Source: Sodiomyces alkalinus F11 (lineage: Eukaryota > Ascomycota > Sordariomycetes > Glomerellales > Plectosphaerellaceae). From it: a stretch of 64,000 nt of DNA. The notes under the pieces are model-generated. The model was not told where the DNA came from and ran no database searches. It was given only the letters and a program-made list of their open reading frames with translations. The stretch covers positions 2,355,619 to 2,419,618 of the forward strand of contig NW_021167083.1 in NCBI RefSeq assembly GCF_003711515.1. The letters are read 5' to 3'. The position numbers were made by a program, and so were the translations under genes. This document shows, one piece after another, positions 5,201 to 52,314 of this stretch; positions within the stretch are counted from its first letter, which is position 1; each line of letters opens with the position of its first letter.

Positions 5201-5830
5201 TAGTCCTTTCTTCTTAGAGTATAGCTATTACGTTAATCCGATTTAGATAACCGAGGAGCCCTTTTCGGAACCTAGAGTATTAGCGGCCTACGACCTACTA
5301 TACCGCTTATAGGAAACGACCGAGTTCGCCTAGGCTATAATTATATCGATATAGCTCAGAAATAAGGAGTCTACTAACTAATATCGTATACCGGCTTAGC
5401 GTTTTAAGGTTAACGATTTAGTCTAGCTATTATTAGCTAATTATTCGACTCTACGATTATTATAAAAGCTCGACTAGCTTTATCGTAAATACCAAGTTAT
5501 AAAGGTAATTAGCCTATACGTAGTTAAGCTCGCTATACTATCGTAGATTTACCCTTCATTCTACGTAGACTTAATATATCGCGCGGGCGATAATCCCTTT
5601 CCGGGATAGATAGTAGATAACCCTTAACTACTGCCTATTCGAGAAATAACCGATAACAAAGACTAGGAAGTCGAGGAAACCCTTTACGCGAGGACGAAGA
5701 GGTAAGGTAAGGGATTAAGACGTGAAGTACTAGTATAATAGGTAGGATACTATAAGCCTATATAGGAACCTTTAGAACTATTAGCGTAAATACAGGTATT
5801 TAATAAGTTTAAAGGGAAATTCGGTTTAGT
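2261..5830 (+). pseudogene. Gypsy-1 pol relic (protease, RT, RNase H, integrase, chromodomain)
   Basis: Domains in order: an aspartic protease with the D-T-G core changed to N-T-G near 2318; RT around 2890-3620 with the catalytic box read as YVDN at 3409-3420 (Asp to Asn); RNase H around 3850-4110; integrase from about 4500. At about 5650-5815 the frame has the length and aromatic pattern of a chromodomain, which in chromoviruses directs insertion to histone-marked chromatin. Several Gln and Trp codons are stops, so nothing functional can be made. The domain calls are by motif only. Confidence 0.82.
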
Positions 5831-5959
5831 AGTAATAAATAATAGCCTATTAAATACCTTTACGCTAATATACTATAGGAACCGATATATAAGCGATTAT
5901 ATCGCGATAATTAGAAAGGAGTAAGAGTTAGATTTAGTTTAGGCCGGATAAGCCCCGCG

Positions 5960-7929: not shown

Positions 7930-8928
7930 GCTGCCGAAGTCGCGGACGCTAAATTATACGCTATTCTTTGAGCACTCTACGCTGCCCTAGAGTAGACGCC
8001 TAGGCCCCTAGAGTGCTATATTTTTAGCGACTTATAGGCGGCTATTTAGAAGCTTTAGCGCACCTTATAGTGGGCTATAGAAGCTAAAGACCTTATCTCA
8101 CGCCTTAAATAACTAGGCACTTTGGTTTCTGTGTTATAGTGCCCCTCGTATATAGGGATAGAAGGGAACGAACTAGCGGATACAGTGGCTAAAGGGGCGT
8201 TAAACCCCGAAAAAGCTACTAAATCCATTAGCTTAGTTATGCTTAGCTATCTAAAACGCCGGGTAAATAAAGCCCTTATTTAAGACTAGAAGACCCTGTG
8301 GAATAACGAAGAGGAGGCGGAAAAAACAGGTAAATCGGTTCGGTTAGGCCGCCTATATAGGCGTCTAGTCCGCGATAACCTCTAGTTTCTCCTGAAAACC
8401 ACTACTAATATAAGGCCCTAGGTGGGTAAAATTGGCTTTTATATCGTTAAAAAACGGCTTCGGTGACCTAAAAAGCCACTAAAAAAGTGCCTAAAACTGC
8501 GCTGACGACCGCTATTCCTGTCCCGGCTCCCCTATATAGGATACAGCATACCTTATCCTTTCCTGCCCTTTTTATAAAAACGAACGAAGAGCCCTGCGGG
8601 AAGCCTTAGCAGGCCTACCGCTATCTCTGCCGCTATTATACGGTACTAAAAGAGGAATACAGGCTTTATAGGCTTATCTTTTAGCTACTAAAATAGCCTC
8701 GGCAGAGTAGTATAGGGCGTAAACCATAATGCCTGCGGACTAGTTATTTTGGTTTGGGTTTTACCTATTAGGTTTATTAGGCAGATTGTTATGAAGGATT
8801 TCCTTTATTTAGTACGCTTTATTTTACTATACCTAGCTTCTAATAGCTTTTAGCCCTTAGGGCAATAGGCACCGCGTTATAGGTTTAGGGCTATATACGC
8901 GTAATAAATCAAAGAAAAAAGAAAAAAG
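7930..8928 (+). pseudogene. LINE-D 3' part: rest of RNase H, ORF2 C-terminus, 3' UTR and A-rich tail
   Basis: It continues the frame interrupted at 698. The RNase H signature GIEGNELAD is readable at 8155-8184 and is almost intact. Downstream is the C-terminal region shared with LINE-B and LINE-E. The 3' UTR includes the conserved tail block around TAGGGCTATATACGCG and ends in an A-rich stretch near 8905-8928. Copia sequence begins immediately after, so LINE-D inserted into a copia element. Confidence 0.85.
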
Positions 8929-9633: not shown

Positions 9634-10182
9634 ACTAAGGCTTAAAAGGTAGAGATTAAGGAGGGGATAAAAGTCTCCTTTTCGAGGACCCTAATGGGTA
9701 TAGCTATATATAAAGCTATAAACTAAGTACTAGAAATAACTTCGAACTTAATACTATATATATGTATTATCGATCTAATACTATATACTCTAGTTTATAT
9801 AATATAACTAAAAGTAGAATTCCCCTACTAAATCTCTATATAGACTTACACGTATTACTTAATAACTTCTAGAATACTAAATACTTTTTTATATCGGTTA
9901 TACGGTAGTATCTATGAATTTAAGGCTATTTTCTAATACATACCTTATAATTTTCACAAGTAACACTGATCTATTATAAATATTCTTACTTATATTCTAG
10001 TTTAATAAAAAAACACATACTAAAATAAATAAAGAAATAAGTCCTAACTTCTAAGTTACATTATAGCTCCTATACTAGCCGGATATAAAAGCTATGAATA
10101 GAATATTAGTACTTGAATTTTCATCTATATAGGGGTTTATTTATATAAAATTTACTATTTCATTACATAAAACAGCAGGGGT
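9634..10182. other. AT-rich gene-flanking sequence, no gene seen
   Basis: This stretch is clearly more AT-rich than the neighbouring transposons and has no readable frame. It keeps some CA and TG dinucleotides, so RIP is weaker here than in the adjacent elements. I see no repeat partner in the window. Confidence 0.6.
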
Positions 10183-10201
10183 CCAAAACGCAGTGTTTTG
10201 G
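10183..10201. repeat. Perfect 7-bp inverted repeat (possible transposon terminus)
   Basis: CCAAAAC, spacer GCAGT, GTTTTGG. It follows CAGCAGGGGT, which gives the block the look of a DNA-transposon or MITE end, but no matching opposite end was found nearby. Confidence 0.4.
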
Positions 10202-10328
10202 TGTAAAGTCGTGTCCCAAAAGGGGGTATGTCCTATATAATGGGGCGGGGACTTACTACGTGGTTAAGTTATTGATTGGCCTGGAGCCATAGGAAGGTAG
10301 TGGGTAGTAAGCCAAATGCTAGCTTCTG

Positions 10329-10398
10329 ATTGGTTATAAATGCGGGTCAATGACGGCACTACAGTCGGAATAACCGGTTGCGGTAGTCGGAATAACGG
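10329..10398 (+). promoter_or_regulatory. Putative promoter of the GH16 gene: CCAAT box, TATA-like element, paired CGG motifs
   Basis: ATTGG (reverse CCAAT) at 10329-10333 and TATAAA at 10335-10340 lie about 340 bp upstream of the chosen start codon. Then AGTCGGAATAAC occurs twice, at 10363-10374 and 10385-10396, 22 bp apart. The first copy reads CGG-N5-CCG, the second CGG-N5-CGG, both plausible half-site pairs for Zn2Cys6 regulators. A pyrimidine-rich tract at 10505-10610 upstream of the ATG is common in fungal promoters and 5' UTRs. Function is inferred. Confidence 0.45.
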
Positions 10399-10682
10399 CT
10401 CTTATTAAGTAATGCTCTCCATCTTGCGGTTCGTGTGAGCCGCATTCCAAGAACGGCAGGGCAGGATGGGTGTGGCTAGACCACACCTCCTCGAGAGACT
10501 CGGGGTAGAGATGAGAGCTGGGTTTTTCTCAGTTGTTTCTTCGCCCATCTTGCTCTTCTCCCGTTATCCCACGAGTTCCTCGTCCTCTTCTCTTCCGATT
10601 CAATAACCCTGCCACCCCCCCCCCCCAAATTCTTTTTGCAGATTTTGCGACCTGGCCCCGGGCTCGACATTTTGATCTTACT

Positions 10683-11928
10683 ATGAACTTCTTCTGGGCT
10701 TTGTGCCTGACCGGTATTCTTCGCCGCGTGTCTGCAAGCGAAGACTGTGACTGCGGATACGCAGCGAAGGTGGGTAATTCTCGACATGTCTTCACAGACC
10801 TCATCGAGACGGACTTTGGCAAAGTAGCAAGCCTATCAAGAAATGCCGACTGGTTCAGCCCTGAGTTCAATAGAACCGGTGATCGCGTGAGGGGCCCGCT
10901 CGGCGAACAATTCAGCCGCAACAACGTCGACACGGTGGTGGAAGGGTCTGGGTCTGACCAAGCCCCAGGGCTCCGAATGTTTGTAAGAAACTCTACAGTT
11001 GACGGCATGGTCCCTGTTGCCGAAGTCGACTCAACCCGTCAGGAGATACAATGGGGTTCCTTCCGCGTGAGTATGCAGGTGCCGGATGTAGCTGGTACAT
11101 GTGCTGCTTTCTTTTGGGTGAGTTCCCCTCCGTTCTTCCACCCCGCCCTCTGCCCTTTGCCCCCTGCTTTGCTTCTTCTTCGAGGTCAACTCCACGGATA
11201 TTCTCCGTCAATATCTACAAATTGAAAGGTTTCAATTGTTGCGCTTCCTAGTCTTGCGACGGGTTGGAAACTAATCGGTACGCCTGGGCGCGCTCCAGTA
11301 TCACAACGACACCCAGGAGATTGACCTAGAATTCCTCACCAAAGAGTTCGATCCCGGAAACAACACGTTCCCTCTCAACCTCGTGGTTCACTCCCTAGAG
11401 TCTCAAGCAGATGACTATGACCCTGTCGAGGCGGGCAGTTTTGTCAAAGTCCAACTCCCGTTCAATCCGACAACAGCATTCCACGAGTACCGATTTGACT
11501 ACCTGCCCGGCAGAATCATCTTTTACGCAGATGGCGACACGATCGCTGAAATGGATGGGCCTGGCGTTCCCACAGCCGGAGGTCACTTAATTCTGCAGCA
11601 CTGGAGTAGCGGAAACCCGCTCTGGTCAGGAGGGCCTCCGACTGAAGATGCGGTCCTCAACATTCGTTATGTCAAGGCCTACTTCAATTCGTCGTCCGTG
11701 GAGCGGAGGGAGGAACTCGCACGAGGCTGCACGGATTCCGCGACCCAAAACGTATGCGACATTCCCAACGATGAGGACTTCTTCTTCAACGACCAGGATA
11801 GTGATGACCAGGGCGGTCAGAATGGCGGAGACGACGGCGGGCCGGAAGATAGCACCAACCATCTATATCCATTATCGACGTGGGGCATATTGGCTGCCAG
11901 TCTGGCAGCAACATTTTGCTACGTGTGA
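10683..11928 (+). CDS. GH16-family (concanavalin A-like) secreted glucanase-like protein, one intron, probable GPI anchor
   Basis: The only intact protein gene here. Exons 10683-11117 and 11299-11928 give about 354 residues. The start MNFF is chosen because it is followed by a short hydrophobic signal peptide ending near Ala18; an in-frame upstream ATG at 10533 would bury it. A Cys-rich CDCGY N-terminus precedes a GH16 fold. The catalytic motif EIDLEF begins seven codons into exon 2, with Glu as nucleophile, Asp assisting and Glu as acid/base. N-glycosylation sequons include NRT, NST, NDT, NNT and NSS. The C-terminus has an Asp/Gly-rich linker and then a hydrophobic tail (LSTWGILAASLAATFCYV), as in GPI-anchored cell-wall enzymes. 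It probably acts on beta-1,3(4)-glucans at the cell surface; the substrate cannot be read. Codon use is normal and RIP is absent, unlike all neighbours. Confidence 0.88.
11118..11298 (+). other. Intron of the GH16 gene
   Basis: The donor GTGAGT follows the codons for AAFFW, the acceptor is CCAG at 11295-11298, and a fungal-type branch site CTAAT lies at 11271-11275. Removing 181 nt joins AAFFW to YHNDTQEIDLEF in phase 0, which restores the conserved GH16 block. At 181 nt it is long for an ascomycete intron. Confidence 0.85.
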
Positions 11929-12073
11929 ATGACTGTCGTCACAGCAGGGATGTCATTGAAATGGCGCAATGGAGAGATAATAGGCAATGTCGGGGTGGAT
12001 TGTCGTGATGCACGTGGGACTTGGGCGTCTTGGATGGTGTCCGTACGTACGTAAACGACTAAGGTGGCTGAGG
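11929..12073. other. 3' flank of the GH16 gene
   Basis: Unique unmutated sequence between the stop codon and a copia LTR. No canonical AATAAA is seen. The transcript must end here or inside the LTR. Confidence 0.6.
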
Positions 12074-21028: not shown

Positions 21029-22325
21029 TGTGTTTTTTTTTTATTCATTTCGCGCATACAGCCCTAAAGCTATGGCGCGGCGCCTTTTGCCCTATAGGCT
21101 CGAGGCTAGAATAAACTATAGTAAGGAGTGGAGTAGTAATAAATAAAGGAAATCCTCCGTAATAGTCTGCCTAATATACCGAAAAACAGGTAAAAAACCA
21201 AAACAGAAAACTAGACCGTAGGATCCGAGGTTTACGCCCTATACCACTCCGCCGAGGCTACTTTAGTAGCTAAAAGATAGGCCTCTAAGGCCTGTATACC
21301 TCTTTTAGTACCGAATAATAGTGGTAGGGATAGCGGTAGGCCAGCTAGGGCTTCCCGCAGGGCTTTTCGTTCGTTTTTATAAAAAGGGTAAGAAAGGATA
21401 GGTGGGCTATATCCTGTATAGAGGAGCCGGGACAGGAATAGTAGTCGGTAGCGCTATTTCGGGCCCTTTTCTAGTGGGATTTTAGGTATCCGAAGCCGGT
21501 TTTTAACTAAGTAAAAGCCGACTTTACCTACGTAGGGCCCTGTATCGGCAGTGATAGTGGTTTTCGGGAAAAGCGGAGGTTATCTCGGACTAGGCGGCTA
21601 TAAAGGCGGCCTAAACACACCGATTTACCCCTTTTCTCCGCCTCTTCCTCTTCATTCTATAAAGCCTTCTAGTCTCGAACTAGGGCCTTATTAACCCGAC
21701 GCTTTAAGTGACTAAGGGTAACTAAGCTAACAGATTTAGCAGCTTTTTTAGGGTGTAACGCCTATTTAGCTGCCTTATCCGCTAGTCCGTTCCCGTTTAT
21801 CCCTATATACGAAGGGCACCACCACACCGAGATAGAAGTGCCCTGTTATTTTTGCTGTAGGATAAGGGTCTTAGCCTTTATAGCCCACTAAGTGGAGCGC
21901 TAAAGCTTCTAAATGGCCGCCTGTGAATCGCTAAAAATATAGCACTCTAGGGGCCTAGGCGACTACTCTAGGGTAATCTGAAGGGCCTGAAGAATAGCGT
22001 ATAATTCGGCGTCGGCGACCTCGGCAGAGTTCCCTAGGTTATAGCCTATAGCTCTACAGGGTCTGCCGGTATTAGCTAACTGTATCATAGCAGCTATAGC
22101 CTGCGTAGGCCCTGTAGGAGGCCTTATAGGGTGGCCTAGGGAGCCGTCGGTATAGAAAACAGAGGCCCACTTGCCTAAGGATTGTTGTATATCGTTAAGG
22201 GCTTCGAGGTGGGCTGTTTTTGGGTATTAGGTGCCGGAGTCGGTGTTTTTCGCGGTTATAGGCTATTCTTTTAAGGGAAAAAAGGGTCTAAGGTCTGCTA
22301 TAGGTTCGGAGGCCCAGGGGGCCTT
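21029..22325 (-). mobile_element. LINE-B: 5'-truncated Tad1-type LINE
   Basis: A 1.3-kb reverse-strand copy with the LINE tail at the left end. A poly-T run at 21033-21042 is the complement of the poly-A tail. It covers the 3' UTR, ORF2 C-terminus and RNase H; FYTDGS is readable in reverse at 22144-22161. It is flanked by a 9-bp duplication TAGCCGGAA at 21020-21028 and 22325-22333, so it is a bona fide truncated insertion by target-primed reverse transcription. Confidence 0.85.
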
Positions 22326-36108: not shown

Positions 36109-36919
36109 TTTGGGGGGGTTTTTTTTATTACGCGTATACAGCCCTAAAGCTATGGCGCGGCGCCAATCGCCCTAAGGGCTAAAGGCTATCAGAAGCTAGG
36201 TACGGTAATCTAAAGCGTAGTAATAGTAATAAATAAAGGAAATCCTCCGTAATAATCTGCCTAATAGACTTAATAGGTAATAAAACAAAGCAAAACAACT
36301 AGACCGCAGGAATCGTGGTTTGCGCCCTGTACTACTCCGCTGAAGCTATTTTAGTAACTAAAAGATAGGCCTATAGGGCCTGTATTCCTTTTTTAGTACC
36401 GAACAATAGCGGCAGAGATAGCGGTAGGCCAGCTAGGGCTTCCCGCAGGGCTTTTCGTTCGTCTTTATAAAAAGGGCAGGAAAGATTAAGGTGCACTGTA
36501 TCCTGTATAGGGGAGCCGGGACAGGAATAGCGGTCGTTAGCGTAGTTTTAGGCCCTTTTTTTGTGAGTTTTCAGGTATCCGAAGCCGGTTTTTAACTACG
36601 TAAAAGCCGATTTTACCCACCTAGGGCCTTATATTAGTAGTGGTTTTCGGGAGAAACAGAGGTTATCGCGGACTAGTCGCCTATATAGGCGGCCTAATAG
36701 AACTAATTTACCTCTTTTCCACTCCTCCTCTTTGTAATTCTATAGAGTTTCCTAGTCTTAAATAAGGGCTTTATTTACCCGGCGTCTTAGGTGGCTAAGA
36801 GTAACTAAGCTAACGGATTGAGTAGCTTTTTCGGGGTTTAACGCCCTTTTAGCTACCTTATCCGATAGTTCGTTCCCTTTTATCCCCACGTGCAAGGGGC
36901 ACCACTACATAGAAACCGA
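36109..36919 (-). pseudogene. LINE-E 3' part (tail, 3' UTR, ORF2 C-terminus)
   Basis: Reverse-strand Tad1-type LINE whose tail starts at the poly-T run 36120-36128 and carries the shared CGTATACAGCCCTAAAGCTA block. It aligns with 21041-21830 of LINE-B. The frame is broken at 36919 by gypsy-2 and resumes at 51174. Confidence 0.85.
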
Positions 36920-37283
36920 TATTATAACCGCGTAGATGCGGCGTTGGAGTGGTTCGGCAGACGGTCATATAACCCCCCCTTTTAAGGCCGCTGGATCCGC
37001 TGTCTATATGTATATTCAGGACAGGCTCGGGACGTTCCTATCGAGGGATTAACATATAATTATTATCCTCTTTTATAATTACTTATTCTATGTTTAAGGT
37101 ATCTTTTTAGTTTAACTTACGTTACCCTGATCAGAATAGTGACTACCGATCTACTTTTTTGCTAAAGATTATAGCGGTGTTGGTTATATTTTAGTTATAT
37201 ATCGTGGTCTTACTAGACTAACCTCTTTATCTGATCTTTATCTTAACGATCTGGTGCCACTACGTCTTTATCCAGTTATAATA
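36920..37283 (+). repeat. Gypsy-2 5' LTR
   Basis: It pairs with 50811-51173 base for base apart from RIP-type transitions. It contains the motif CCCTGATCAG at 37125-37134, which recurs across the element. It is followed by a G-rich leader with another such motif at 37329. Confidence 0.9.
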
Positions 37284-37539
37284 TAGTGCTCGGAGGCGGA
37301 TTTATTCGGCGTCCCTAAAGTGTTCTGACCCTGATCAGAGTAATAAAGGCGCTCGAGGGAGCTTCCGGCCCTCCTAAACGGACTATCAGTTAATAACCCC
37401 AAAGAAGAATACAAAGATAACGACTAAGGAAGGATTCAACGCTTTAAGACCGAGGGGAGATTAGCCCCAATAAGATTAGGAAAAGAAATAACTGCTTAGG
37501 TGAGAGTTAAAAAACTATTAACATTTTTAATTGTAAGAC

Positions 37540-40500
37540 CCGCCGCTACGGAGGTGGTAATTATAGAAATAGAAGAAACCGATTAGATCGCGATAGAGTT
37601 AGATTTTGGATATAGAATAGACTCGATAAGGGGCTTATACCCCCTACTAGGAATTAAAATAGATTCTCGTATAACGGCGAAGAAAAGACGAGACCGCTTA
37701 GAGCAGCTTACCCGGATTAGGGTAACTAACCCCTAATAGACCTAATAAAAAGCTAATACCGAGCGTGGAAGCGAAATAATAATACCTTATAAGAGGACCC
37801 GATAGTCTAGTAAGGACCTTTATAGACCCTATAAGTATATCGTGATACTTCTTTACGAGGCTTAGCGGGTAGTGCTTTTAATATTAATGTCCGTGAGTAT
37901 AGCCCTTTTACTAGTAGGTAATCTCCTAATCGTGGGGGGCCTTTTCCTTCGAGGTAAGTTAGAAAATCTAGACCCCGAAGATAAGTATTAAGGAGTATAA
38001 CCTAGGACCGCCCTCTCGTTAAAGACCTTATTACTCTTATTAAGACGAGATAATATATATAATAACCTGGCTAGTATCTAGAATACCTATAGGATTTTCT
38101 CGCTGGACGATTAGTTCGAAGAACCTTTCCCTAAATACCCTAAGCGCCCTAACCCTATTATTATTATTCGCCTACCCCTTTATACTTACACCTAAAATCC
38201 TATGGATACTTAGACTTAGTATCGCGAGCCTACCTCTATTATCGTTATTAGCGACTCCGACGATAAGGCTCCCTCGCCGGCTATTCCCCCTATTCTTACG
38301 CCTGCTACTTCTGCTACCCCTAATTAGGGGAACCACGATATCGGGGCTACGGCCTTACCTCCGCCCGCTTCTAGGCCGACTACTACGTCTGCCGCAGCTC
38401 CGGCTACTATTTCGATAACTGCTCCTAATACTGCCCCTATTACTACCCCTGCCTAGCCCGCTTCGAACGCTTCCCCTACCACCGCTAAAGACATGATTAA
38501 GCTACTATAAGCCCTAATAAGCCGTGACCGAGAGAGCACTATTACCGAGGTCGTTAGAGCCCTACCCCTTACTACTACCACGTTAAGAGCACCCCTAAAT
38601 CCCCTCGTTACTAGAGCTCCCCGCTTTAGTGGTAAATCCCTCTCTATATTCCTTTAGTAGTATAATAACTATACTAAGCTTAACCGCCTTAGTAAAGCCG
38701 ATAAGATTACCTATATTAACCTATACACGGATACGGCTATTCGTCCCGCTATTAAGCGCTTAGTCAGAGAGGTTTAAGCCGATAAGGGCGGTTAGTCTAA
38801 TCTAGTTAAGACGCTCGTTAAAGAGTTCTCTTATCTAGATCCTAACTACTAACTTAACTTCTCTTATAAGGTTTATTAGCTTCGAATAAAGTATAAGACG
38901 TATAAGATTAATAGCGTTCGTTAGGTTAGGGACTTACTATAGTAAATCACTATCTAGAAGGCTAAGGCAGAGCGGGTATAAGGCACTTTTATCGAGGACT
39001 CCGAGCTCTACGGTATCGTCTTTACTATTCTATATAGGGATATCTATATATTTATCGCTAATAAGCTTAAGATTCGAGGCACCGACTTAAGAAAGATAGT
39101 TAAGAGCTATAAGCTACTTTTAGACCTACTACGTGAGTAGTCTACGGATATCTAGGATATAGAGGGTAAGCCTTTGGATAGAGACGCTATACTGGGTATA
39201 ACTAAGTTTAATTAGCCTAATAGTACCGCTTTCCAGCCCATGATCTTAAGGCGGCCTATTATAGTCTAGGAGTCTATAGCCTCTTAATCGGATATAGATA
39301 AGCTCGCCGACCTCCTCGAGAAATATACTATTTCCCTTATCTATAATAGAGCTAAAGGTGTTAGGGGCACTGCCGCCTAAGTACTCGCCCTATCTAAGAG
39401 GATAGGCACGGAGAAGGTCTAAGCCCTCCTCGCTATAAAGTCTAACCTGAAGAATGCCTTCTAAAATGTCCTGAAGCACGCCCCTTAGCCTACGATAACT
39501 GCTTTAGTGCACTTCGCCCCCCCTAATCAGGCTAACTATACCGCTTCCTAGCCTAATAACGCCTAGTACACCGAGGAGATCTATTACAGAGGACCCCGCC
39601 CTAGATATAATAACCGGCGTAACGATAGCCGCCCGACCTAGTAACACGATAGCCGCCTAGGATAGCAGAGAGGTGCCTAGAGTAATAGCCAGCCCCTATA
39701 AGCTCGCTGCTACTACTACGGCTAAGAAGGGTATCGGAGAGATAATTACCCTATCCTAATCCACGATAACGCCTATAACCTGGTTAAGTAGGAGTTCCCC
39801 GCGTATTTAGTTATAGATTAGACCGGTACCTGGGCAGCCTGCCTAAAGAGCGAGCTACGAGTTAATAAGTACTGGCTATACCGACGCCTTATACTATATT
39901 AGCTGGCTACTAAGCGTTATAGCCGATTTAAGGAGCTCGTAGACCTTTATATTAAGACCTTTTAGCCCGCCACCCTCCCCTATAAGACTAATAAGACTAA
40001 TAGGCTTATAATTAAGTGTATAGTTAAGCAGGTATAGAAGTAGTAGACCGGTGAGAGTGGTTAGGCCACCTAAGCCACTTAAGCCTTAAGGGTTACTAAG
40101 ATTACGGGATCTATTAACTTTATTACTACTAGAGTGTATACTACGTCTATATCTCGATACACTTCGACCGACCCTTAGAACCCTCTTCGTATTACTAGGA
40201 GCGGTAGAATTAGTAAACCCACGCTAAAAGTAGCTGGTTCCCCTGATTAGGCCGTTTAATAGACCCTAACGCCTCCGGAAAGCTCCTAAAGGGTTATAGA
40301 GATAGTTAACGACACCGATATAGACGATAGTCTAACCCCTGATTCGATAGCCCCTATATCTAGACCTACTACTACCTCGAATATTACCCGGCCTGCCTTA
40401 CAAGCCTCGGCTTAGAAGGATACCCTTGATTTATTTAACTAGGAGGCTATTATATAGAAGGTCCGAGAAAAGAGCCTAAAGCACCTTTTAGAGATAGAGG

Positions 40501-40800
40501 TTAAGGTTCCTATAGTTTACCTCCTCTCCACTAATAAAGCTATACTCGCGGACTATAAGGAGACGCTAAGGTCAATCGGTAGCTAGGTAAAGCCTCGTAA
40601 AGTTATCCGCTTAACCCTTAAGGAGGCCTTTTTTATAGACTCCTTACCCCTTAGACCCGAACGCCCTATATGGTTTACGAATACCACGACTATAGCCCCT
40701 ACGCCTAATAGTGCCCTGTTTATTACGCCCGCCCCGATAATTAATAAACTAAAGCCTCCTACTATTTACGCTAAGTATATAACGATACGGGTTAGCCTAA
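37540..40800 (+). pseudogene. Gypsy-2 gag relic with SUMO-interacting-like motifs and zinc knuckle
   Basis: One frame runs from about 37860 to 40330 through Gln and Trp stops. Near 37865-37955 it codes a strongly hydrophobic, membrane-helix-like stretch. At 38238-38264 is IIVISDSDD, a textbook hydrophobic-plus-acidic SUMO-interacting pattern. A Pro/Ala/Thr-rich linker (38275-38480) leads to a Ty3/gypsy capsid domain (38480-39150). A CCHC knuckle lies at 39709-39755 with one Cys kept and the other two Cys and the His changed to Tyr. A second such motif, VIEIVNDTDIDD, lies at 40293-40328 in the same frame. Gag normally forms the particle; the motifs suggest, but do not show, SUMO binding. Confidence 0.7.
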
Positions 40801-43800
40801 CTAAGCGAATAGCTAAGGCCTACCCTGCGGAGGACCGTTTTTACGTAGTTATTAATATAGAAGCTATCTTTAATACTATCCGGCTAGACCTCGTGGAGAA
40901 GCTAGGACTACGGGGCTATATCGGTAAAAGTAATATCGCGATTAAGGGGATTAACGACGTGGATAGGGTAAACTACGTAGGATATCTAGAAGAGCACCTT
41001 TAGGTCGGGGACTAGTATAAGAAGGTTTATTTCGTCGTGATTAAGGGAATAGGGCCTAGGATACTTCTTAGCCTGCTGTTCTTACTTAATAGTCACGCCT
41101 CTTTCACCTATAGGGACGGATAGATCGATATGAACTTCGCTTATAGGGACGCTCGTATTATCGTCCTTGTCGTTAATAGAGAATAGGTCGATGACCGCCC
41201 TTATAGATAAAGCTAGCCTGAGTTTAAAGAGGAGGAGAAGCGTTAAGAAGAGGAGGATTTAATCGATTAGAGTATCGGATAATAGGGGGAGGACGGCGTC
41301 CCTTATAGCTAGTCCGGGGCCGCTGCCTTAATATCGAGTAACGATAGGACTAGCGGTTCGCCCGACTAGGGGGCGAAAGAGGAGGAGGAGGCGAGGGAGG
41401 AGAAGGAGGAGACGAAGAAGAAGAAGAGCGACGACGATGTTTTCTTTTATTTAGATAATAAGGACGCTATTGCTTTAGTAGCCTTCCTGTTTACGGAGGG
41501 GGTAAAGTCCCTAATAAAGAGAATTTGTATAGCCTTAAGGGCGATACCACGAAATTAGGGCCGAGGATATGAGAGGTATATAGCGGAGGCTCTCTATATA
41601 ATAACTACGACTATATAATAATAACTAATTTATACTAACCACTTATCTTTTTCGACTTTTCTATACTACTATTAGCCTAATCACCCTAATAGCCTCTTAG
41701 TCTTGTATTTTCGAAAGGACCGGATAATATAGGATAATTTCCAGATAAGAGCGCTCGAGGCTTTAAAGAAAGAGGAGGATAGTATTACTAGTATAGCCGC
41801 GGTTACGACAACGAGGCTATAGTAGCCGAAGAGGAGGAAGTCCTAGGATCTTATTAAAGAAGTATACTATCCCCCTAATCCCGAAGGCGTCTTTACTATA
41901 TAGAAGCCTAAGGCTCTTAAGGTTTACCCTTTCAACGACGTCCTGTCCGATAGAAGTATCCCTGATAAAGACCCCTACTAGAAGAAGAATATCCTCGTAG
42001 AAATTAAAGAGGAAGACCAGGAGCTAGAAGACGAGCGGTTTATTAGCCTAATCACACTAAAGTGTTCTAAAATTATACCCTATTCGCGCCTTATACCCGA
42101 AAGACTTAACGCTATCCTAGAGACCGTTAACTACTTAACCCCTAAGGAAAAGGAGCTCCTAACGAAGGTCCTCCTACACCGAGAGGCAGCTATTACGTGG
42201 GATTAGACTAAGTGCGGCCGCCTTAACGAACGGGTAGCCCCTTTATAGAAGATTCGAGCGGTTCCTTATAAGGCGTGGTAGGCAAAGGGGATCCCTATCC
42301 CTAAGGCTCTAGAGTCTATAGTTATATAGATAATAAAGGACCGCCTTAAGAAAGGTATGATCGAGGAGAGCCATATAGCCTATCATAACCCCTGGCTCCT
42401 AGTTAAGAAGAAGGACGGTAATATACGGCTTATTAACTCGGCTACTAAGATTAATATAATAACCCTTCAAGATACCTTTATACCGTTTAGGGCCGATAAG
42501 TTCTCCGAGGATTTCGCTATATATAAGCTTATATCCCTCTTAGACCTTTGTTCCGGCTATAATCAGGTCACCCTTAACGAGGAGTCTTAAGATCTAACCA
42601 TCTTTACGACTATCGTTAGACTCTTTAGGATATATACCCTTCCTTAGAGGGCTACTAATTTAGTAGCCTAGTTTATATATATTATAACCCGTATCCTTTA
42701 CGACCTTATCCCCTAGTGCTATAGACCCTTTATTAACGATAGTATAGTAAAAGGACCGATAACCACCTATAAGGATACCCTGATTAGACTAGGAATTCGC
42801 CGTTTTATAGCTAAGTATATCGCTAATATCGATAAAGTACTTCTTAACGTGGAGCTAGCTAAAGGCATTATCGTAGGTGTTAAAAGCTAGTAGTATTAGA
42901 AAGCAGCCACTATCGTGGGCTACGTCTATAGTATTAATAGTCGTTCCCCTAAGCAGGTTAAGATCGCGAAGGTCTAAGAGTAGGAAAGGTATAGTACGGT
43001 TTCTAACGTTCGTTTATTCCTCGGTCTCGCTACCTTTTACCGAGTCTAGATTTATAAGTTCGCTATTATCGCTAGACCCCTAACTAACCTGCTACGGAAG
43101 AATACTGCCTTTAGGTGGGAGGAGCCTTAATAATACGCTATAGACGCCCTTAAGAAAGCCCTTACTATAGCCCCTATCCTAATCACTATTTAGTACGGCG
43201 AAGGCGTAGGAGTTATCTACGTTATCGTCAACGCTAGCACGGATAGATAGGGTGGAATCCTCGGATAGTACGTTAAGGATAAAAGAGCCGTGGCACCGTA
43301 CGAAAGCGGACGCTAGTCTCCTACGGAGAGGGTCTATAATACTAGTAAGCTAGAGCTAAGGGGAGTCCTAAAAACCCTTTAGCGCCTATACAACTACCTT
43401 TATAGGGTTTACTTTATCCTTAAGACCGATACTTAAGCCCTCCTATCCTAGTTAAAAGGATCTGCTATTAACCTCCCTAGTGCCCTAATTACCCGATAGC
43501 TCGCCTAGATCCGACTCTTCGACTTCGACGTTAAGTATATTAAAGGATCTAAGAATACTATAGCCGATAGACTCTCCCGGATACCCGGAATACCCTCTAA
43601 TTAGACTAGCGACGATACCTAAACGACTTTATAGATAATAGAATCTTCCTTACGGAAGCCGAGAAGTAGTTCGACGACCCTGCCCTAGCCGATAATATCC
43701 TCGATAAGGACCTTACCTAGAGTTAGTTTTCCTGATAAGTAGCCCCCTTCTTAACGACCTTTCACGTGTCTAGGGGAATAAATCCTAAGGAAGCCCGTAG

Positions 43801-45480
43801 AGTTAAAGATAGAGCTACCCGTGTATTGCTTAAGGACGGACTACTATAGACCCGAGTAACTAAAGCCGATTTAACCCCTAAACGCTAGATTAACGATAAG
43901 AATACCCAGGTTAACCTGATTAGGAGAGCCTATAATAAATCCGGACACCGAGGAACGTAAGGCACCTATTATCGCCTCGCCGCTAACTACTTCTAGGATA
44001 GTATCTATAAGAGCGTTTAGAGGCTTATCGAGTCCTATTCTAAATACTAGGCCCGCCGTAGCCGTTCTTAGGAGGACCCCCTAATCGTAATAAGCCTGCC
44101 CGAGGCCGCCCTCCCTTTTACCTAGGTCTGCCTAAACGTTTAATATCTTTAAGGATAGTATCACGTGGAGGCCCGCTATATATTTATAGGTTAGGTTAAG
44201 GCCCGACTACTAAAGAAGAACACGTCTAAGGCTATAGCCTTATTCTTATAGAAAGATATAATCTATAGGTATAGGCTCTATATAATCCTCCTTATAAATA
44301 GAGGTCTAGAGAATAAGGGTTATATAATCGAGCTAAACCGTCGCTATAGGATTACTCGGAGGCTCGCCTCGGCCTATTACCCCCGCGCTAATAGCCTTAA
44401 CGAGGTTAGGTATAAGGCTATTATCCACGCTTCATCTATTTAGTTAAAGCTTTACCCTAAAGCCTTTTATAAGATCCTCCTAATAGTCCTCTTCGCTAAC
44501 CGTATAACGGTAAGAGCTTCTACTAGCCGTACCCCTTTCTTCCTTCTGCATGGCTATAAGGCTATTACCCCGAATAAGACGACCTGCCTAACCTAGAGAG
44601 TACTGGACTAAGGCCGCGTTAAAACCCCTAAGGATAAGATAATGCTTCGGTTAAGGGCTTTTACCTAGCCTAATACCGACCGGTAAACTACTATTACTAT
44701 AATCACTAAATAATAAGGGCGACGGATAGCCTATATTAACGCTAGCCGTGTCCGGGTACTCTATAAGTAAAGGTTATAAATTAAGGATCTTATACTAGTT
44801 CACGATACTAAGAAAGCTATCGATATAAGCCGTAAGGCTAAGCTCGATTACCGCTAGAACGGCGTATATTATATCCGAAAGGCTAATCACGATAATAAGT
44901 CCTTTAGTATTAAGACTCTTACTAGGGAAAAACTAAAAGGGATTATTTTTACTACTAACCGCCTAAAGAAGTTTATTAAAAACGATAATACGCACTAGGA
45001 GCCTAAGGACTAGACTATACTTAAACGGGACTATAGCGAAGAGCTTAAGATTATATACCCTGCCTAAGGAGCGCCTATTACCGAAGAAGTCACTAAAGCA
45101 CCCCTTCTGCCTAGCGAGGACCCTAAGGAAGATACTAGGGCCGAGCATAATATTAGTTCCCCTGATTATACTATTAACGATATTTTACGCCGCTCCGAGA
45201 GACTAAGAGAGTTATTAGGGGAGTATTATAAGAAGCTAGAAGAAGAGTTAAAAAAGGTAAGGGAGTCTGGTACCGTCGAGGTATAGATTCTATAGCGCCT
45301 AGATTTTAACCCGAGTAAGTACGAGGATTATACTATCGAGCTATATTTTATTCCTTATTATTATTTTCCCGGATTTCCTTTATTTTTAAAGCCTATACTC
45401 GTTAGGAGGCTAGCGTATAGTCTTAGGGCTGAGGGTATATAAAGCTAAGTCTTTTATCCACCTAGAGTCGCGATATACGC
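40800..45480 (+). pseudogene. Gypsy-2 pol relic (protease, RT, RNase H, integrase)
   Basis: The aspartic protease core DTGA is now NIEA near 40853. A Glu/Lys/Asp-rich low-complexity stretch lies at 41380-41460. RT runs from about 42290 to 43060; its first part is open as a 77-codon frame (42357-42590) with the segments WLLVKKKDG and LLDLCSGYNQV. RNase H follows at about 43220-43600 and integrase at about 43920-44700 with the HHCC finger altered. Protease is in a different frame from gag, so either a programmed shift or an indel separates them. No chromodomain was recognised. Confidence 0.8.
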
Positions 45481-46099
45481 TAGTATAAAGGGCGTAAACC
45501 TATAAATAATCTTCCTAACCACTACCCTAGTCCGTTTCTTTTTTAAACTTTTACCTTCATTACCCTAATTAGAGACACTATAAACCTGTCTGGACTTATT
45601 TCCCCAATTAGAAGACTTTTCCTTATATTTATTATTTATTATGTTTATAAGTAAGCCTAACTGCATAGACGTTATAGAGATATACCACTATATACTCTCT
45701 TTTCTGTAATAAGTATAGGTTTCTTTTATTATAATCTTAAATTCTTTACTTCTATTCCCCTGATTACCGTATAATTTATCGGACCTAAGCTAAATTACAC
45801 CTGGTTTAATATAAGCTACCTATTCTGCGGAAAGGAGTTATAGTCAGGAATAACTAGTATAGGGACGGTTACTAAGGGTATAATATAATCGAGAGAAATA
45901 CCGTTAAAGGCTATAAGCCGTAAACCGTAAATCCCTCCTTTACTAACCCTAGTACTAATAACTTATTAGGTTATAACGTTAATCTTAAAGGCCGATTTCA
46001 AAAGTATAAGAGCTACCCCCTTCCAACTACTTAAAGCCCCCTTTTCCTAATCTCTATTACTAATCGCTCTCCCTATAACTAATATTATACCCCTATTCC

Positions 46100-46510
46100 C
46101 CTGACTATACCTATATATACTACCCTTAAGCCTACTATACGTAAGTTCCTCGTCCCGAAAGAAAAGACTAACACTATACCTATTACTAGAAGAGTAAGTT
46201 TAAGACACTAAGTTAACGGCGTTAAGAGCCCCGCTAGAAAAACCCCTAATAAAGAAAAACGTAATATCACGATAATAACGGCGGTAATAATAATAAAAAC
46301 CGGAAAACCCGGGGATTTCCTAGTTTTATTAGCCTAATTAAGCGACTACCGACCGCTGCCTATAAGTCTTATTCTTCTTATAAGGGCTTCGTCGGTAGAT
46401 AGGCCCGTGGAGTCCACTTATATAGAGTAGAAAACGGATTATTATAAAGAGAAGGAAGAAAGAGAAGAAGATAAGCCACGAAGAAGACCTCCTTTTATAC
46501 CTTATTTCCC
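46100..46510 (+). pseudogene. Gypsy-2 short charged ORF downstream of pol
   Basis: A plus-strand frame with few stops. It starts with KFLVPKEK-like sequence, has a hydrophobic middle, and ends in an extremely charged run (about 46440-46490, Glu/Lys/Arg-rich) before Pro-rich residues. No family is recognised. It could be an accessory ORF or the 3' exon of pol. Confidence 0.4.
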
Positions 46511-46729
46511 CTAACCTTACTACCTATTCCCCTAATTAGACCTATTATAAAGTTCTCGCGAAAAGAGTAATACCCTAAGTACTAGGGAACGTTACTTTAT
46601 AGAAATCCCGTTTATCTATAAGAGTTATATTATTTAGATAATTAACTATCTAATTCCCTTCCCTATAAGCCACCCTATAAACCGCGCACCTATTCTTACT
46701 ACCTATTCCCCTAATTATAAAGCACCCTA

Positions 46730-48050
46730 TTAAGTAAATAACTTAGTTTCTGGGTTAGGATCGCTTTTATAGTTACCTTCCTTAGGCCCGTACTTCTTAA
46801 AGACCCGGGGCTAGACCTAAGCCCCCATAGGAAGCAGAATAGTCTAGTAGATAACTATTTCCTCCCGGTTAGGCACCTCCTTAGCCTTACGGATAATATT
46901 ATAATACCTATCCACCTCTTTCCTATACCGAGCTAAGAGTATTAGGATAAGACTAAGTAAGCTATCGTAAGCCCTAGAGGTCTTACCGCTATAGGCCTAG
47001 CCTATTTAGCAAGTAATCTTATAGCCTATAGCGATTATATTAACTAGGAAAACGCTAGTCCGAGGGGAGTGGATTAGGTATCATTTAATATTATAGAAAG
47101 ACTACGGTAGCACTAAGTTATCCGTAGGGAGGGGATTATAGTGTTTAAAGCCGGGGTAATTATTATCGGGCTAGCTAATCTTATACTTAGCCTACTAGAA
47201 CTCCTTACGGAGGCCCTTATCTCGGAACGTATAAGTAGACTTATAGAATAGATAGTTAGCGTAGTCGGGGAAGCGTGGATTCTGCGGCAGGGAGACGTAC
47301 TTATAGAATAGGTACGTGATCTTATTATTAACCCGATCTATTATAGCTATCCAGCGTTATTCGTAGTATTAGCAGGGCACCTTATTAACTACGCTATATA
47401 CCTGCACGATAAGTGCCCTAGCGGCGTAAAGCCTCGTTATAATCTTTATAATATACTCTCTTTAGGGGCCCGCGAGATCCTTAGCTATAAAGATACGACG
47501 GCGGAATAAAGGCGTCTTAAAGAAGTCACGTATTTCCCTGAATAAAGCCTATTCCACGTCCCGGTTAGTAATATTTAATAAAGTATCCTAAAACCGGTTC
47601 GTAATAGTAAGCCGGGTATCTAAATCGACGATAGAAGATAGAAGGTCGAGCTCGACGTACGAAACGCCGCCCTTACTAGCCACCTCGAACTAACCGATAT
47701 AAGTATTAACCTTAGTACTAAAGTTAGCACGCCCTGATTAGGGTAACCACGAGAAATAAGGAAGGAAAACTTATAGTTATATCTATAGCCGTTACCTAAA
47801 CGTTATACTCGTTAGGAGTGCCCCTTATTAGACACGTCTTAGACTAAAACCACGGAATAGGCTTAACAGACTCCTATCTACTAACGGCCTTATTACGTTT
47901 ATACGGTTCCGCTTTATTTAATACCCTGATTATATACTTAGAAGCTATAGGATACGTTCGAGAAGTTAGGAAGTTATTATAGTGATAGTGCTATCGGTAA
48001 AGATAACTATAGAAGTGGTGATATTACTTAGAAGAAGAGGAACGAAGAGC
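46730..48050 (-). pseudogene. Gypsy-2 antisense ORF, unidentified
   Basis: A minus-strand frame can be followed for about 400 codons, with stops almost only at Gln and Trp positions. Readable pieces include FEVASKGGVSYVELDLL (about 47690-47640), FPDYANYLFYKSTYTFRD (about 47270-47210) and ARYRKEVDRYYNIIRKAKEV (about 46945-46880). The upstream part near 47750 seems to change frame, so there may be an intron or indel. It is divergently arranged to the Ulp1-like ORF, with 48050-48690 between them. No known domain is recognised. Confidence 0.55.
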
Positions 48051-48722
48051 CGGGGATCCTGTGTCTTTTATATTTAAGAGATAGATAAGCAGAGACGTTA
48101 ACTAAGCGGCTTATAGCTTCTATAAGTTAAGGGAGGCGTCTTTAACGAAGTAATCACGACTATTTAACCTGCCTTTATAGCTATTTATAGCTACCTCCTT
48201 TTATTTTCCTTTATTATAGAATCACGACTCCGCCTACTACCTAATAATAAACGAAAAGCCTTATTAAATATTTACTAGCTAATTATAGTAAGCGCCGAAG
48301 CCAGTTAGCTAATTATAGTTAGCGTTTCTAATATCGATTTCCTAATTTAGCACCTTCTTTCCGATTTTATAAAGGCTATCTTTATCACGACTTAGGAAAT
48401 AACCTCCTTTAATAACTAAAAGACCGTTCAAGCTATAGTTATAAGCTAAGGACTCCTACTTAAAGGGAAAAGCCTTTAGAAGAGGTCCTCGGAGGATAAA
48501 TAGAACCCTCCTCGGCCTTAATCCTAATCTCCCCCCCTTCGATATTTCCTTATAGACTCAGGCTTAACTATTCTTCCCTATTATATTTTACTCCTTTTCC
48601 GCTATTTCGATCTCCCCGTTTCCCCCCCGAACGTCCTTTCTTCCCTTTTTCTCTCTTTTTTTTTCGTAAGGAATTATTACTAAAGACCCTGATTAGGGTA
48701 ACGTAAGTAACCGTAGATACTA
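48051..48722. promoter_or_regulatory. Intergenic region between divergent gypsy-2 accessory ORFs
   Basis: No frame is visible. It holds a direct repeat of AGCTAATTATAGTAAGCG type (48281-48326), a long pyrimidine tract at 48590-48665 and the motif CCCTGATTAGGGTAAC at 48687-48702. The divergent layout suggests a bidirectional promoter independent of the LTR, but this is inference. Confidence 0.4.
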
Positions 48723-50790
48723 GATCCTACAAATATCGACGCTATAGCCGCTAATAACTCTATAGACTATTAGGCCACCGCCCCTAAAGGCTTAGACCTA
48801 AATAAGGGTATTTAGCTTAAAGGACTGACCGCTATCGAGTCGAGTACTAGGCCCTGTAAGGAGTATAACCCTAAGAAGAGTAGGTGGGCGTTCCTAGTAA
48901 GTAGTTTACCGTACCGCCTCTTTAAGGCCGTAGATAACGATACCCCTTATACTGGGTTTAGAGCTATCTCGAAGGATAGCTAGTAGATAATTTAGGGACT
49001 CCTGGATAAGAATAAGAATAACGCGTTAGACGTAGAGGCCGTAGGGCTCGCCGTATTATAATCGCCTCTAATAATCTTATATAGCGAAGGATATCTTAAG
49101 GTCCGTTCTATCTTAATATTAGCCTACCGGCTACGTAAAGATATAAAGGCCGATAGGTGGTAAGAGAAGAGCATTATAGAAGAAGTGATAAGTGCGGTGG
49201 TTAGCCGTAGGTAAGGGGATTTAAGGCCTACGGTATTCCTTAATAATATTCCGTGCTAGGGAATAGATACTAAGGGTAAGGCGGAGTTTATAACTCTCTC
49301 CGATAAGGCGCGGTAACGTGCTAAAACCAGCCGCTTTATTCCTATAATCTACGATATCGACGGTAACTATTTCGTTAGTCTAATTATCGACTAGGAGACT
49401 TAGATTATATATAGGTATAATAGTATATAGTCTAACGGTAAAAGTAAATAACGCCTCCTCAAAGTCGCCCATCTTACAATATAGTGGATAATTTATATCA
49501 GAGCTCCTAAAGAAGCCGTTAATAGTATAGCTAAAAAGTTCTATATTATCCCTAGCCCTATATAGCTAGACGGTTACTTATATAGTCCTTTTATTATAGA
49601 ATAGATTAGAGCTTCAGTCTAAGAGGAATACCTATTCCCTTAGAGCTCTAAGATTTATAGGTTTACTTAAGGTCGCTGTTACGGGAATAATATAGGGGAA
49701 TATACTCGGTATATTAAAGAAGGCTAGGTGATTTATATTAGTAAACTCTTTAGTTTTAGTTACTATATAGAATTAGCTATAAAGCCTATAACGCCGCCTC
49801 CTAAGGCCCCTAAGACGACTGGATTCTAGCCTATTAATAAGACTAAGACATGGATACCGGTTAACCCGCTTAAGGGTCCTAAGACTCCTAAGATACCTAA
49901 AGTTAAGGAAGAGTCTATTAACCTTACTGGTTCCCCTGATCCCGAGATTATAGACCTTACTAACTCGTCCGGCTAGAGTTTCTAGGACCCCCTAGTGTTA
50001 TCCGATAATAGTAGTAACGTCGACGACGTAGGTCTTAGTGGTCTCGAGCTCTAGACACCTAAGGGTAAGAAAGCAGTGAAGTAGACGCCGCCGGCTATTA
50101 AGAAAACGCCGCCCCTAAAGATACCGAAGATACCTAAAACGCCTAAGACTTTAAAGGCCTCTAAACCCTTTACCGCTTTAAAGAAGAGGAGTTACGATAT
50201 CTAAGATAAATAGGAAGAGGAGGCGAAGTACTAGGCTAAGGGCACGGAGATATCTTATTACCTGCTTTACTATAGACTCGTAGATATACGGCCTTTAGCT
50301 AAGCGCGTTAGTCCTATTAGGCCGAGCCTATACACTAAGGAAGAATAGGTTAAGTCCTTTAATAACCTATACCGAGTAGGCCTCCGTGAGGTAGTGGCTA
50401 ATAGCGCGCTATATCTACCGCCGCCTCGGGCTATACCTTAGGAAGGATAGCTTCGTTATAACGCGGGGATTAAATAGGAGGCAGATAAGGCTACCACTAA
50501 TTAAGAGGCTAGGAAGGCTAACAAGCCTAACTATATAGTTGGAGGAAGAACCTTACGAAAGCGTAAGTAGAGGCATATATAGAGGGTTAGATAAGAGATA
50601 TCTCGAGGAAATAATCGGTGGAGATAGTAAGTGAATAGTATATACGGAGGAACTAGAACTAAGAGGATCCCTAATCAGGTATACGTGGAGGACGGGGTGA
50701 TTAGAAGAATAAGGGTATACGATAGCTTTTTGCTTAGTTTATTTACTTATATCTGCTTGTTTTTAGGAGTTATCTACGCTACGAGGGCGT
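48723..50790 (+). pseudogene. Gypsy-2 Ulp1-like (C48) cysteine protease ORF
   Basis: A single ~690-codon frame with RIP stops reaches almost to the 3' LTR. The catalytic layout of Ulp1/SENP proteases is visible. A His position now Tyr (49368-49370) lies in a strand like IPIIYDIDGNYFVSLII. The Asp, now Asn, is 17 codons later (49419-49421, YNSI). Gln, now TAG, is at 49563-49565, and six codons later is the nucleophile Cys, now Tyr (49581-49583), in LDGYLYSPF where LDGYLCGPF is expected. These 17- and 6-residue spacings match yeast Ulp1 as I know it. Next come EIIDLT (49944-49961), a canonical SUMO-interacting pattern, and a Lys/Pro/Thr-rich tail (50050-50170). It would cleave SUMO or SUMO-like conjugates or process element proteins. 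It is now dead. Confidence 0.72.
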
Positions 50791-50810
50791 AATCGAGATA
50801 ACTAGGGCCG

Positions 50811-51173
50811 TATTATAACCGCGTAGATACGGCGTTAGAGTGGTTCGGTAGACGGTCATATAACCCCCCCTTTTAAGGCCGCTAGATCCGCTGCCTATAT
50901 ATATATTAAGGACAGGCTCGGGACGTCCCTATCGAGGGATTAACATATAATTATTATCCTCTTTTATAATTACTTATTCTACGTTTAAGGTATCTTTCTA
51001 GTTTAACTTACGTTACTCTAATCAGAATAGTGACTACCGATCTACTTCTTCGCTAAAGGTTATAGCGGTGTTAGTTATGTTTTGGTATGTATCGTGGTCT
51101 TACTAGACTGACCTCTTTATCTGATCTTTGTCTTGACGATCTGGTGCCACTACGTCTTCATCCAGTTATAATA
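50811..51173 (+). repeat. Gypsy-2 3' LTR
   Basis: It matches 36920-37283. The stretch before it is only moderately purine-rich, so a polypurine tract is not obvious. Confidence 0.9.
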
Positions 51174-52314
51174 TACCTAGTTATTTAAGGCGTGAAATAA
51201 GGTCTTTAGCATCTATAGCCTACTATAAGGTATACTAAAGCTTCTGAATAGCCGCCTGGGAATTACTAAAAATATAGCACTCTAGGGGCCTCGGCGTCTG
51301 CTCTAGGGTAGCGTAAAGGGCCTAGAGAATAGCGTATAATTAGCGTCCGCGACTTCGGTAGCGGCCCCTAGATTAAAGCCTATAGCTTTACAGGGCCTTC
51401 CGGTATTAGTCCACTATATCACAGCGGCTATAGCCTGCGAGGGTCCTCTAGGGCGGCTAGTAGGGTGGCCTAGGGAGCCGTCGGTATAGAAAACAGCAGC
51501 CTATTCCCCTAGGCCTTGTTGTATTTCAGCGAGGGCTTTAAGGTAGGCTGTTTTCTAATCGAGGGTATCGGGGCCAGGGCCAGGGCCAGGGTTAGTGGCT
51601 ATAATACGCCGGTCTTTAGGAAAAAAGGGCCTTAGATCCGCTAAGGGTTCCGAAGTCTAGGGGGCCTCCTACCTAGCCGAAGGGCCCTCGATATCCTAAG
51701 ACTAACCTATTAAAGCCGCTATTTCTAGGCCTAGCCTAAATAGCTATGTACTAGGCAGAAGGTTCTATAGCCGGTTAAGGCCTTCGTGGTTTTCGCTTAG
51801 TAGGAGCTAGCGTCTAATAGGGTGGTTCTATAGGAATTTTAAGATTCTAAAGGCATAAAGCCTATTAGACCTAGTTAACCGAACCGCCGCTGGGGGGATT
51901 GCTGCTTCGAGTTCTAGAGGCCGTAAAGGGGCTCCCCTAAAAGCACCTAAGGCCCTGACTAGGGCCCCGTACTGTAATCGTTCTAGGCGATCCATAAGGT
52001 GTTTTTTTCGGTGATTTAGGGTCCTACCAGAGCTGCGAGCCAAAATCAGCTAGGGAGGCTATACAGGCTATATATAGCTGTCGTAAAGCCTTAAAGGAAA
52101 GGCCCCTTTACGAGCTAGCTAGTCTATATAGCCTGTTTAGGGCCCCTAAGGCCGAAGTTAGTCGTTTTTCGACATGGGGTTTCAAGGATAGCTTAGGATC
52201 AAACCAGACCCCTGCGTGCCTTATTAAACTCCTTCTACTACGCTTTATAGTCAGCCCTTTCTTCGCGGTATACGCGTTAATCTTATAGATAGCGTATACG
52301 CCCCTTTTTAGAAA
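51174..52314 (-). pseudogene. LINE-E 5'-truncated part (RNase H and RT C-terminus)
   Basis: It resumes the LINE frame lost at 36919. FYTDGS is readable in reverse at 51479-51496. A 71-codon stretch at 51828-52043 is still open and includes LNHRKKHLMDRLERLQYGAL, the same region that begins LINE-D at position 20. The RT C-terminal segment HAGVWFDPKLSLKPHVEKRL lies near 52165-52225. The copy is truncated at about 52314, where copia-2 gag resumes. Confidence 0.82.

Follow-up and report, generated by a model that had tools for sequence, protein, structure and literature searches.

Peptidases of family C48, the Ulp1-like cysteine proteases, take off SUMO or NEDD8 and include deNEDDylases as well. 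Mobile DNA carries such domains too: in Ginger1 an Ulp1 or OTU domain follows a Gypsy-like integrase on its C-terminal side (PMC2836005), the plant Mutator-like elements (MULEs) Kaonashi/VANC carry an Ulp1 domain and belong to a family tied to silencing escape (PMC13317346), and CryptonF/CryptonS, oomycete elements related to fungal ones, encode a C48 peptidase (PMC3212892). We analyzed a 64,000 nt stretch of the Sodiomyces alkalinus F11 genome (the window; contig NW_021167083.1, positions 2,355,619-2,419,618; assembly of 43.4 Mb in 22 contigs), which contains a Ty3/gypsy retrotransposon with a sense open reading frame (ORF) in front of its 3' long terminal repeat (LTR). This ORF is likely an accessory gene of a large Ty3/gypsy family in a fungus with active repeat-induced point mutation (RIP), its core being a C48/Ulp1-like protease domain.

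Ginger1 resembles this locus in combining an Ulp1 domain with a Gypsy-like integrase. However, it is described as a DNA transposon that moves by cut-and-paste, has terminal inverted repeats and contains the domain inside its transposase (PMC2836005), while the gypsy element has LTRs and a separate 3' ORF. Kaonashi/VANC in contrast are plant DNA transposons (PMC13317346), and CryptonF/CryptonS are tyrosine-recombinase elements without LTRs or reverse transcription (PMC3212892). Among LTR elements, the plant Gypsy lineage Retand shares a very long region from pol to the 3' LTR (2.9-6.6 kb, compared to about 5.4 kb here) with antisense ORFs. Yet these mostly encode TRP28, and no known domain is reported for the sense ORFs of that region (PMC11963269). 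The term Ulp1 is absent from the available text of the Retand paper (PMC11963269), of a review on additional ORFs of plant LTR elements (PMC7264820) and of a rotifer study (PMC5408684). An earlier interpretation of this DNA from its letters alone (the sequence-only reading) knew of no well described Ty3/gypsy element with an Ulp1 domain. In agreement, a search of the open-access literature by title and abstract revealed no LTR retrotransposon of this kind among the papers listed, while priority is not certain since subscription literature and Repbase entries were outside this search.

The ORF is strongly mutated. Between 48600 and 50800, observed/expected ratios are 0.15 for CpA, 0.24 for TpG and 1.75 for TpA, compared to 0.99, 0.98 and 0.82 in a non-RIPed stretch at 10-12 kb. 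This comparison stretch (10000-12000) has open frames without RIP signature and resembles a family-16 glycosidase gene. All four places of the catalytic quartet are altered in the window copy (Table 1) and each change is compatible with CpA or TpG to TpA. The spacings of 17 codons (His-Asp) and 6 codons (Gln-Cys) reported by the sequence-only reading are exact in this copy. Its Gly place after Cys reads AGT (Ser) at 49584, and the stop at the Gln place is followed by LDGYLYSPF. That RIP caused the four changes, as was claimed, thus fits their kind. However, while transitions make up 1500 of the 1673 differences between the window ORF and the type A copies introduced below, only 396 of these 1500 are in CpA/TpG context. 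We attribute this to exhaustion of the context in all copies. Every copy whose core was read has a stop codon inside the catalytic core.

Two versions of the ORF, type A and type B, share about 41% amino-acid identity (over 733 residues aligned with L038 and 742 with L042), and pieces of the other four type B rows give 33-46%. To count residues at the catalytic places, distinct rows were used: type B comprises six rows plus L055, whose frame shifts between the His part and the Cys part, and the type A row L031/L050 was excluded for having no letters at the core. In type A, the His place holds His in 0 of 32 rows (31 Tyr, 1 stop), the Asp place Asp in 8 of 32 (22 Asn, 1 Lys, 1 Thr), the Cys place Cys in 0 of 31 (all Tyr) and the following place Gly in 3 of 31 (28 Ser). 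In type B, the respective residues are present in 4, 5, 4 and 2 of 7 rows. Since His, Asp and Cys are read unmutated in type B, these three catalytic residues are seen, not merely inferred. The Gln place is a stop in 32/32 type A and 7/7 type B rows, i.e., in all 39 copies, which is what saturated RIP would make of a Gln codon. Across the 740-column alignment a single quartet has RIP-compatible columns at exactly the 17 and 6 spacing, compared to a chance expectation of about 0.07 by our own rough estimate.

Profile comparisons point in the same direction. Among the top 20 matches, 16 of the real profile fall into the core, compared to 0 or 1 for each of 10 control profiles (the hhalign C48 template is labelled SENP8 since SENP8 is its first row). 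The closest match to the gypsy core is a C48-coding stretch of the same genome, L051 (G000:C11:294900-295310). Both have RGNHF...IY.YDS in common, while L051 is not RIPed (CpA 1.13 of expectation), has frame changes that make it a pseudogene or an intron-containing gene, and shows no element traces in the 411 bases seen. The C48 proteases Ulp1, SENP1, SENP8 and fungal 6dg4 share the order and spacing of His, Asp, (Gln) and Cys as well as the DS and CG motifs. However, they are host proteins, whereas the product of the gypsy ORF is extended by long flanking regions, a Pro/Lys linker and a hydrophobic terminus. Taken together, the diverged type B copies and the match to L051 support the C48 assignment. 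With His-Asp-(Gln)-Cys correctly ordered and spaced, the core is well supported as a predicted cysteine protease domain of the C48/Ulp1 type. The product would presumably have been an active protease.

Several results speak against this assignment. Gln was never observed in any copy, only inferred, and the N-terminal half of the C48 domain was not recognised in the ORF. Comparison with PF02902 gave a sub-threshold match for one of six cores (L042, 12.6 bits; gathering cut-off 20.7), while the cores of the window copy, L041, L055, L038 and L004, all 14 whole ORF rows and the read-through ORF of the window had no Pfam C48 match. These low scores are perhaps not excused by RIP alone, since a second gypsy element, located in L032 and RIPed to the same degree, has its reverse transcriptase recognised with an E-value of 5.7e-23; the element's own reverse transcriptase likewise misses its cut-off (Table 1). 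The type A profile alone was not significant against C48 (21 of 150 shuffles reach its score), nor was the RIP-aware profile score of the window copy. In the RIP-aware scan the site scored 13.2, compared to 12.7 for the best shuffled score at this place, but it stayed below the best scores elsewhere in the window (17.3) and below the maximum of every shuffled scan. Comparing the whole alignment with Ulp2-like proteins by hhalign matched the linker only, pairwise comparison with SENP2 and the host Ulp2-like L052 gave no match, a PDB profile search with the ORF found nothing and protein-database searches found no relative. Single-sequence fold prediction yielded a pLDDT (predicted local distance difference test) of 30.5, too low for use. 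Finally, of the earlier claim of a SUMO protease, the C48-type core is supported, while the substrate, SUMO or other, is beyond what sequence can establish.

That the ORF belongs to the element is supported by its other copies. From 48600 its frame is long and collinear with the element, interrupted by stops, mostly TAG and TAA. Similarity to type B extends from codon 56 up to the LTR, and the last conserved stop (50790-50792, counted on the alignment) is 18 nt before the LTR start at 50811, so the ORF ends directly before the LTR as the sequence-only reading had stated. A DNA search with the ORF, of which 40 of 111 candidates were scored and counts thus are lower bounds, gave at least 45 matches; at least 33 are nearly full length (type A) and at least 38 extend into the LTR, stopping no more than 2 bases short of where the query ends there. 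We further examined 20 loci out of 40 pol matches, the window itself being another of the 40. Of these 20, 16 contain the ORF completely or partially. The 3' LTR is reached in 12 and the ORF precedes it in all 12, L050 lacking the ORF core. In the four loci L032, L039, L046 and L048 similarity ends before the ORF. L032 contains a chromodomain gypsy element in opposite direction (2148-7101, by Pfam) and L046 a relative of that element (by similarity). Both therefore are interrupted copies, and a third cassette type was rejected for them. Thus the claim of an element-borne ORF is supported: the ORF has been copied many times along with a Ty3/gypsy family and is no insert nested in one copy only.

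The two ORF versions occur on a single gag-pol backbone; neither these two cassettes nor the antisense ORF was mentioned by the sequence-only reading. A protein search with the type B ORF of L042 (62 of 155 candidates scored, counts again lower bounds) gave at least 81 matches, of which at least 27, L042 included, are at least 62% identical across at least 683 of 720 residues. Compared to the window, the gag sequences of the 39 further long matches show 84-92% identity, and for five of them at the expected distance from type B pol copies (including L042, L041 and L038; a coordinate-based assignment) this value is 90-91%. When the pol ends of eight representatives were compared all against all, identities of 90.5-93.7% showed no split between A and B. 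The LTR of L043, which has a type A cassette, is nearest to that of the type B copy L041 (94.4%, vs. 86.0-91.0% for the other six representatives). The break in DNA similarity between A and B falls within a 29-nt direct repeat (46510-46538 and 46689-46717), and similarity resumes at about 50440. The simplest account is that the 3' cassette was probably swapped between elements via template switching of co-packaged RNAs.

RIP makes no transversions. In the sense ORF, their frequencies at codon positions 1, 2 and 3 are.201,.180 and.310, descriptive values as the rows are related, and in the antisense ORF of the cassette.191,.147 and.288. Over the N-terminal region and the core, the ORF frame scores best of six (186-198 bits vs. 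at most 105 for the others), and so does the minus-strand frame of the antisense ORF (196-213 vs. at most 137). Near the LTR (50440-50792) the transversion values are.034,.042 and.013, without enrichment at position 3; this region is therefore held at the DNA level or homogenised. The hydrophobic end of the ORF is in this part. Across 36 copies its hydropathy has a median of 2.0 and a minimum of 1.0, while values of at least 2.0 occur in 3.2% of 2844 all-frame chunks of the window. A membrane (tail) anchor is possible.

Table 1. Position of the element and its features in the window (coordinates relative to the first base of the 64,000 nt; RIP, repeat-induced point mutation).
Feature	Position	Strand	Remarks
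Ty3/gypsy element	36920..51173		14,254 bp; bounded by a pair of direct LTRs
5' LTR	36920..37283	+	364 nt, TATTATAAC...GTTATAATA
Reverse transcriptase region (RVT_1)	42402..42611	+	PF00078, E 0.11, 12.7 bits; cut-off 29.6 not reached
RNase H domain	43116..43415	+	PF17919, E 3.7e-9; cut-off passed
Integrase zinc-binding domain (H2C2)	43895..44050	+	PF17921, E 7.8e-5, 23.2 bits; cut-off 25.5 narrowly missed
A/B DNA similarity break, start of exchanged 3' cassette	46524..46525	.	blastn of 20 pol-anchored loci
Antisense ORF, conserved A vs. B	46757..47923	-	40-42% identity to six type B copies
Sense ORF, putative C48 (Ulp1-like) domain, RIP-mutated	48765..50792	+	about 700 codons; 48765 is the similarity limit, not a start codon
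Predicted catalytic core, C48-like domain	49302..49640	+	
Catalytic His place	49368..49370	+	TAT (Tyr) in window copy
Catalytic Asp place	49419..49421	+	AAT (Asn) in window copy; +17 codons from His place
Oxyanion Gln place	49563..49565	+	TAG in window copy
Catalytic Cys place	49581..49583	+	TAT (Tyr) in window copy; +6 codons from Gln place
Pro/Lys/Thr-rich linker	49790..50440	+	little conserved A vs. B (alignment); alone no type B match
Hydrophobic C-terminal stretch	50727..50783	+	19-residue hydropathy 2.09
3' LTR	50811..51173	+	363 nt

Reverse transcriptase, RNase H and integrase follow each other in Ty3 order according to Pfam, and the integrase frame extends to about 45.4 kb, open in the RIP sense. 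Neither gag nor an aspartic protease was recognised by Pfam in the element pieces searched. The approximately 5.4 kb between integrase and 3' LTR hold two ORFs, the antisense one followed by the sense C48-like one. Aligned with each other, the LTRs are identical in 340 of 364 columns, and 21 of the 23 substitutions are transitions. The element ends read TA...TA, as TG...CA ends would after RIP. A different repeat hosts the element: its flanks 36282-36909 and 51180-51554 correspond to portions of 21194-22220, where the repeat is continuous. Uninterrupted relatives of this flanking repeat are found in the window at 21194-22220 and 7931-8397. In an empty-site comparison with two relatives of the flanking repeat that lack the element, the junction showed no clear target duplication beside the element. 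A 20-29 nt LTR piece (50997-51025, also 37115-37134) recurs inverted at 48689-48717, directly upstream of the protease ORF, where it is a possible regulatory or splice signal.

Other explanations for the ORF have to be weighed against a C48-like accessory gene. As the order His-Asp-Gln-Cys is common to the CE clan, the core might belong to another cysteine protease of this clan, of the adenovirus type or another viral maturation enzyme, that processed the element's own Gag and not SUMO. The confinement of similarity to the catalytic half and the lack of a Pfam-recognised aspartic protease in the pol pieces searched would fit. However, the best matches, from the L042 core and L051, are to C48, and we regard this explanation as unlikely. 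Very unlikely is a separate DNA transposon, for example a MULE or Crypton with Ulp1, that inserted into an ancestor of the gypsy element and was carried along ever since. In its favour, MULEs, Ginger1 and Cryptons can contain Ulp1 domains, and the cassette is delimited by a separate break point (46524). Yet at least 38 of at least 45 ORF matches continue into the LTR, cassettes of both types end at the same LTR, the ORF is lacking in 0 of 12 LTR-reaching copies, and Pfam recognised no transposase in the antisense ORF, whose translations from both types match no Pfam family (a weak test under RIP). A nested insert of the window copy alone was rejected, as the geometry is common to many copies. 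The C48-like ORF may have originated by ancient capture from a MULE/Crypton-type element.

The place before the 3' LTR is that of env, the ORF lies on the sense strand, and an envelope-like gene with an accidental C48 quartet would account for the C-terminal hydrophobic stretch (hydropathy being the sole envelope feature tested) and for a cassette that diverged while gag-pol stayed uniform. This is hardly probable, though, as type B shows H, D, C and G directly at C48 spacing and profile, hhalign and L051 matches agree with it, whereas the hydrophobic stretch lies in the LTR-adjacent part conserved as DNA and is matched in hydropathy by 3.2% of all-frame chunks. Pure chance we consider least probable of all. 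RIP fills all frames with Tyr, Asn and TAG, so that RIP-shaped quartets may arise anywhere. Indeed, the 740 columns contain 47 His-like, 31 Asp-like, 19 Gln-like and 25 Cys-like columns and 64 quartets at loose spacing, and the window copy alone is not significant against the C48 profile. However, just one quartet has the exact spacing, the unmutated type B residues largely refute chance, and control profiles hardly ever hit the core. On these three grounds a chance motif was rejected.

For an accessory C48-like protease, the following scenario can be envisioned. Before RIP, the protease would have been produced during the life cycle of the element. In the role that we favour, it would have taken SUMO, or a tag resembling it, off host silencing factors or off Gag or integrase of the element itself, and tag removal would let the element escape control or complete integration. 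Antisense ORF and protease cassette would be exchanged by recombination, probably template switching, leaving gag-pol uniform while the cassette diverges. A role in Gag maturation is the main alternative to desumoylation. In yeast, mutations of Ulp1 or of SUMO ligases lead to over-amplification of the 2-micron plasmid (PMC7652418); thus SUMO does govern selfish DNA in a fungus. Plant MULEs with Ulp1 cause related elements to become hypomethylated, although what the Ulp1 domain contributes is described there as unknown (PMC13317346). Tentatively, and short of calling it probable, we propose that a Ty3/gypsy lineage encodes its own deSUMOylating or deNEDDylating accessory enzyme in a 3' cassette that also includes an antisense gene and can be exchanged, and of which two types exist in an arms race with SUMO-dependent host silencing or restriction.

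Such genes can hide, as a plain domain search of the window copy finds no protease. Ulp1-like domains recur in unrelated DNA transposons and, if our interpretation is true, the same tool is now found in a copy-and-paste element, with Gag, integrase and the silencing machinery as likely protease targets. One backbone with two diverged cassettes then provides a natural experiment that shows where in a retroelement selection keeps changing.
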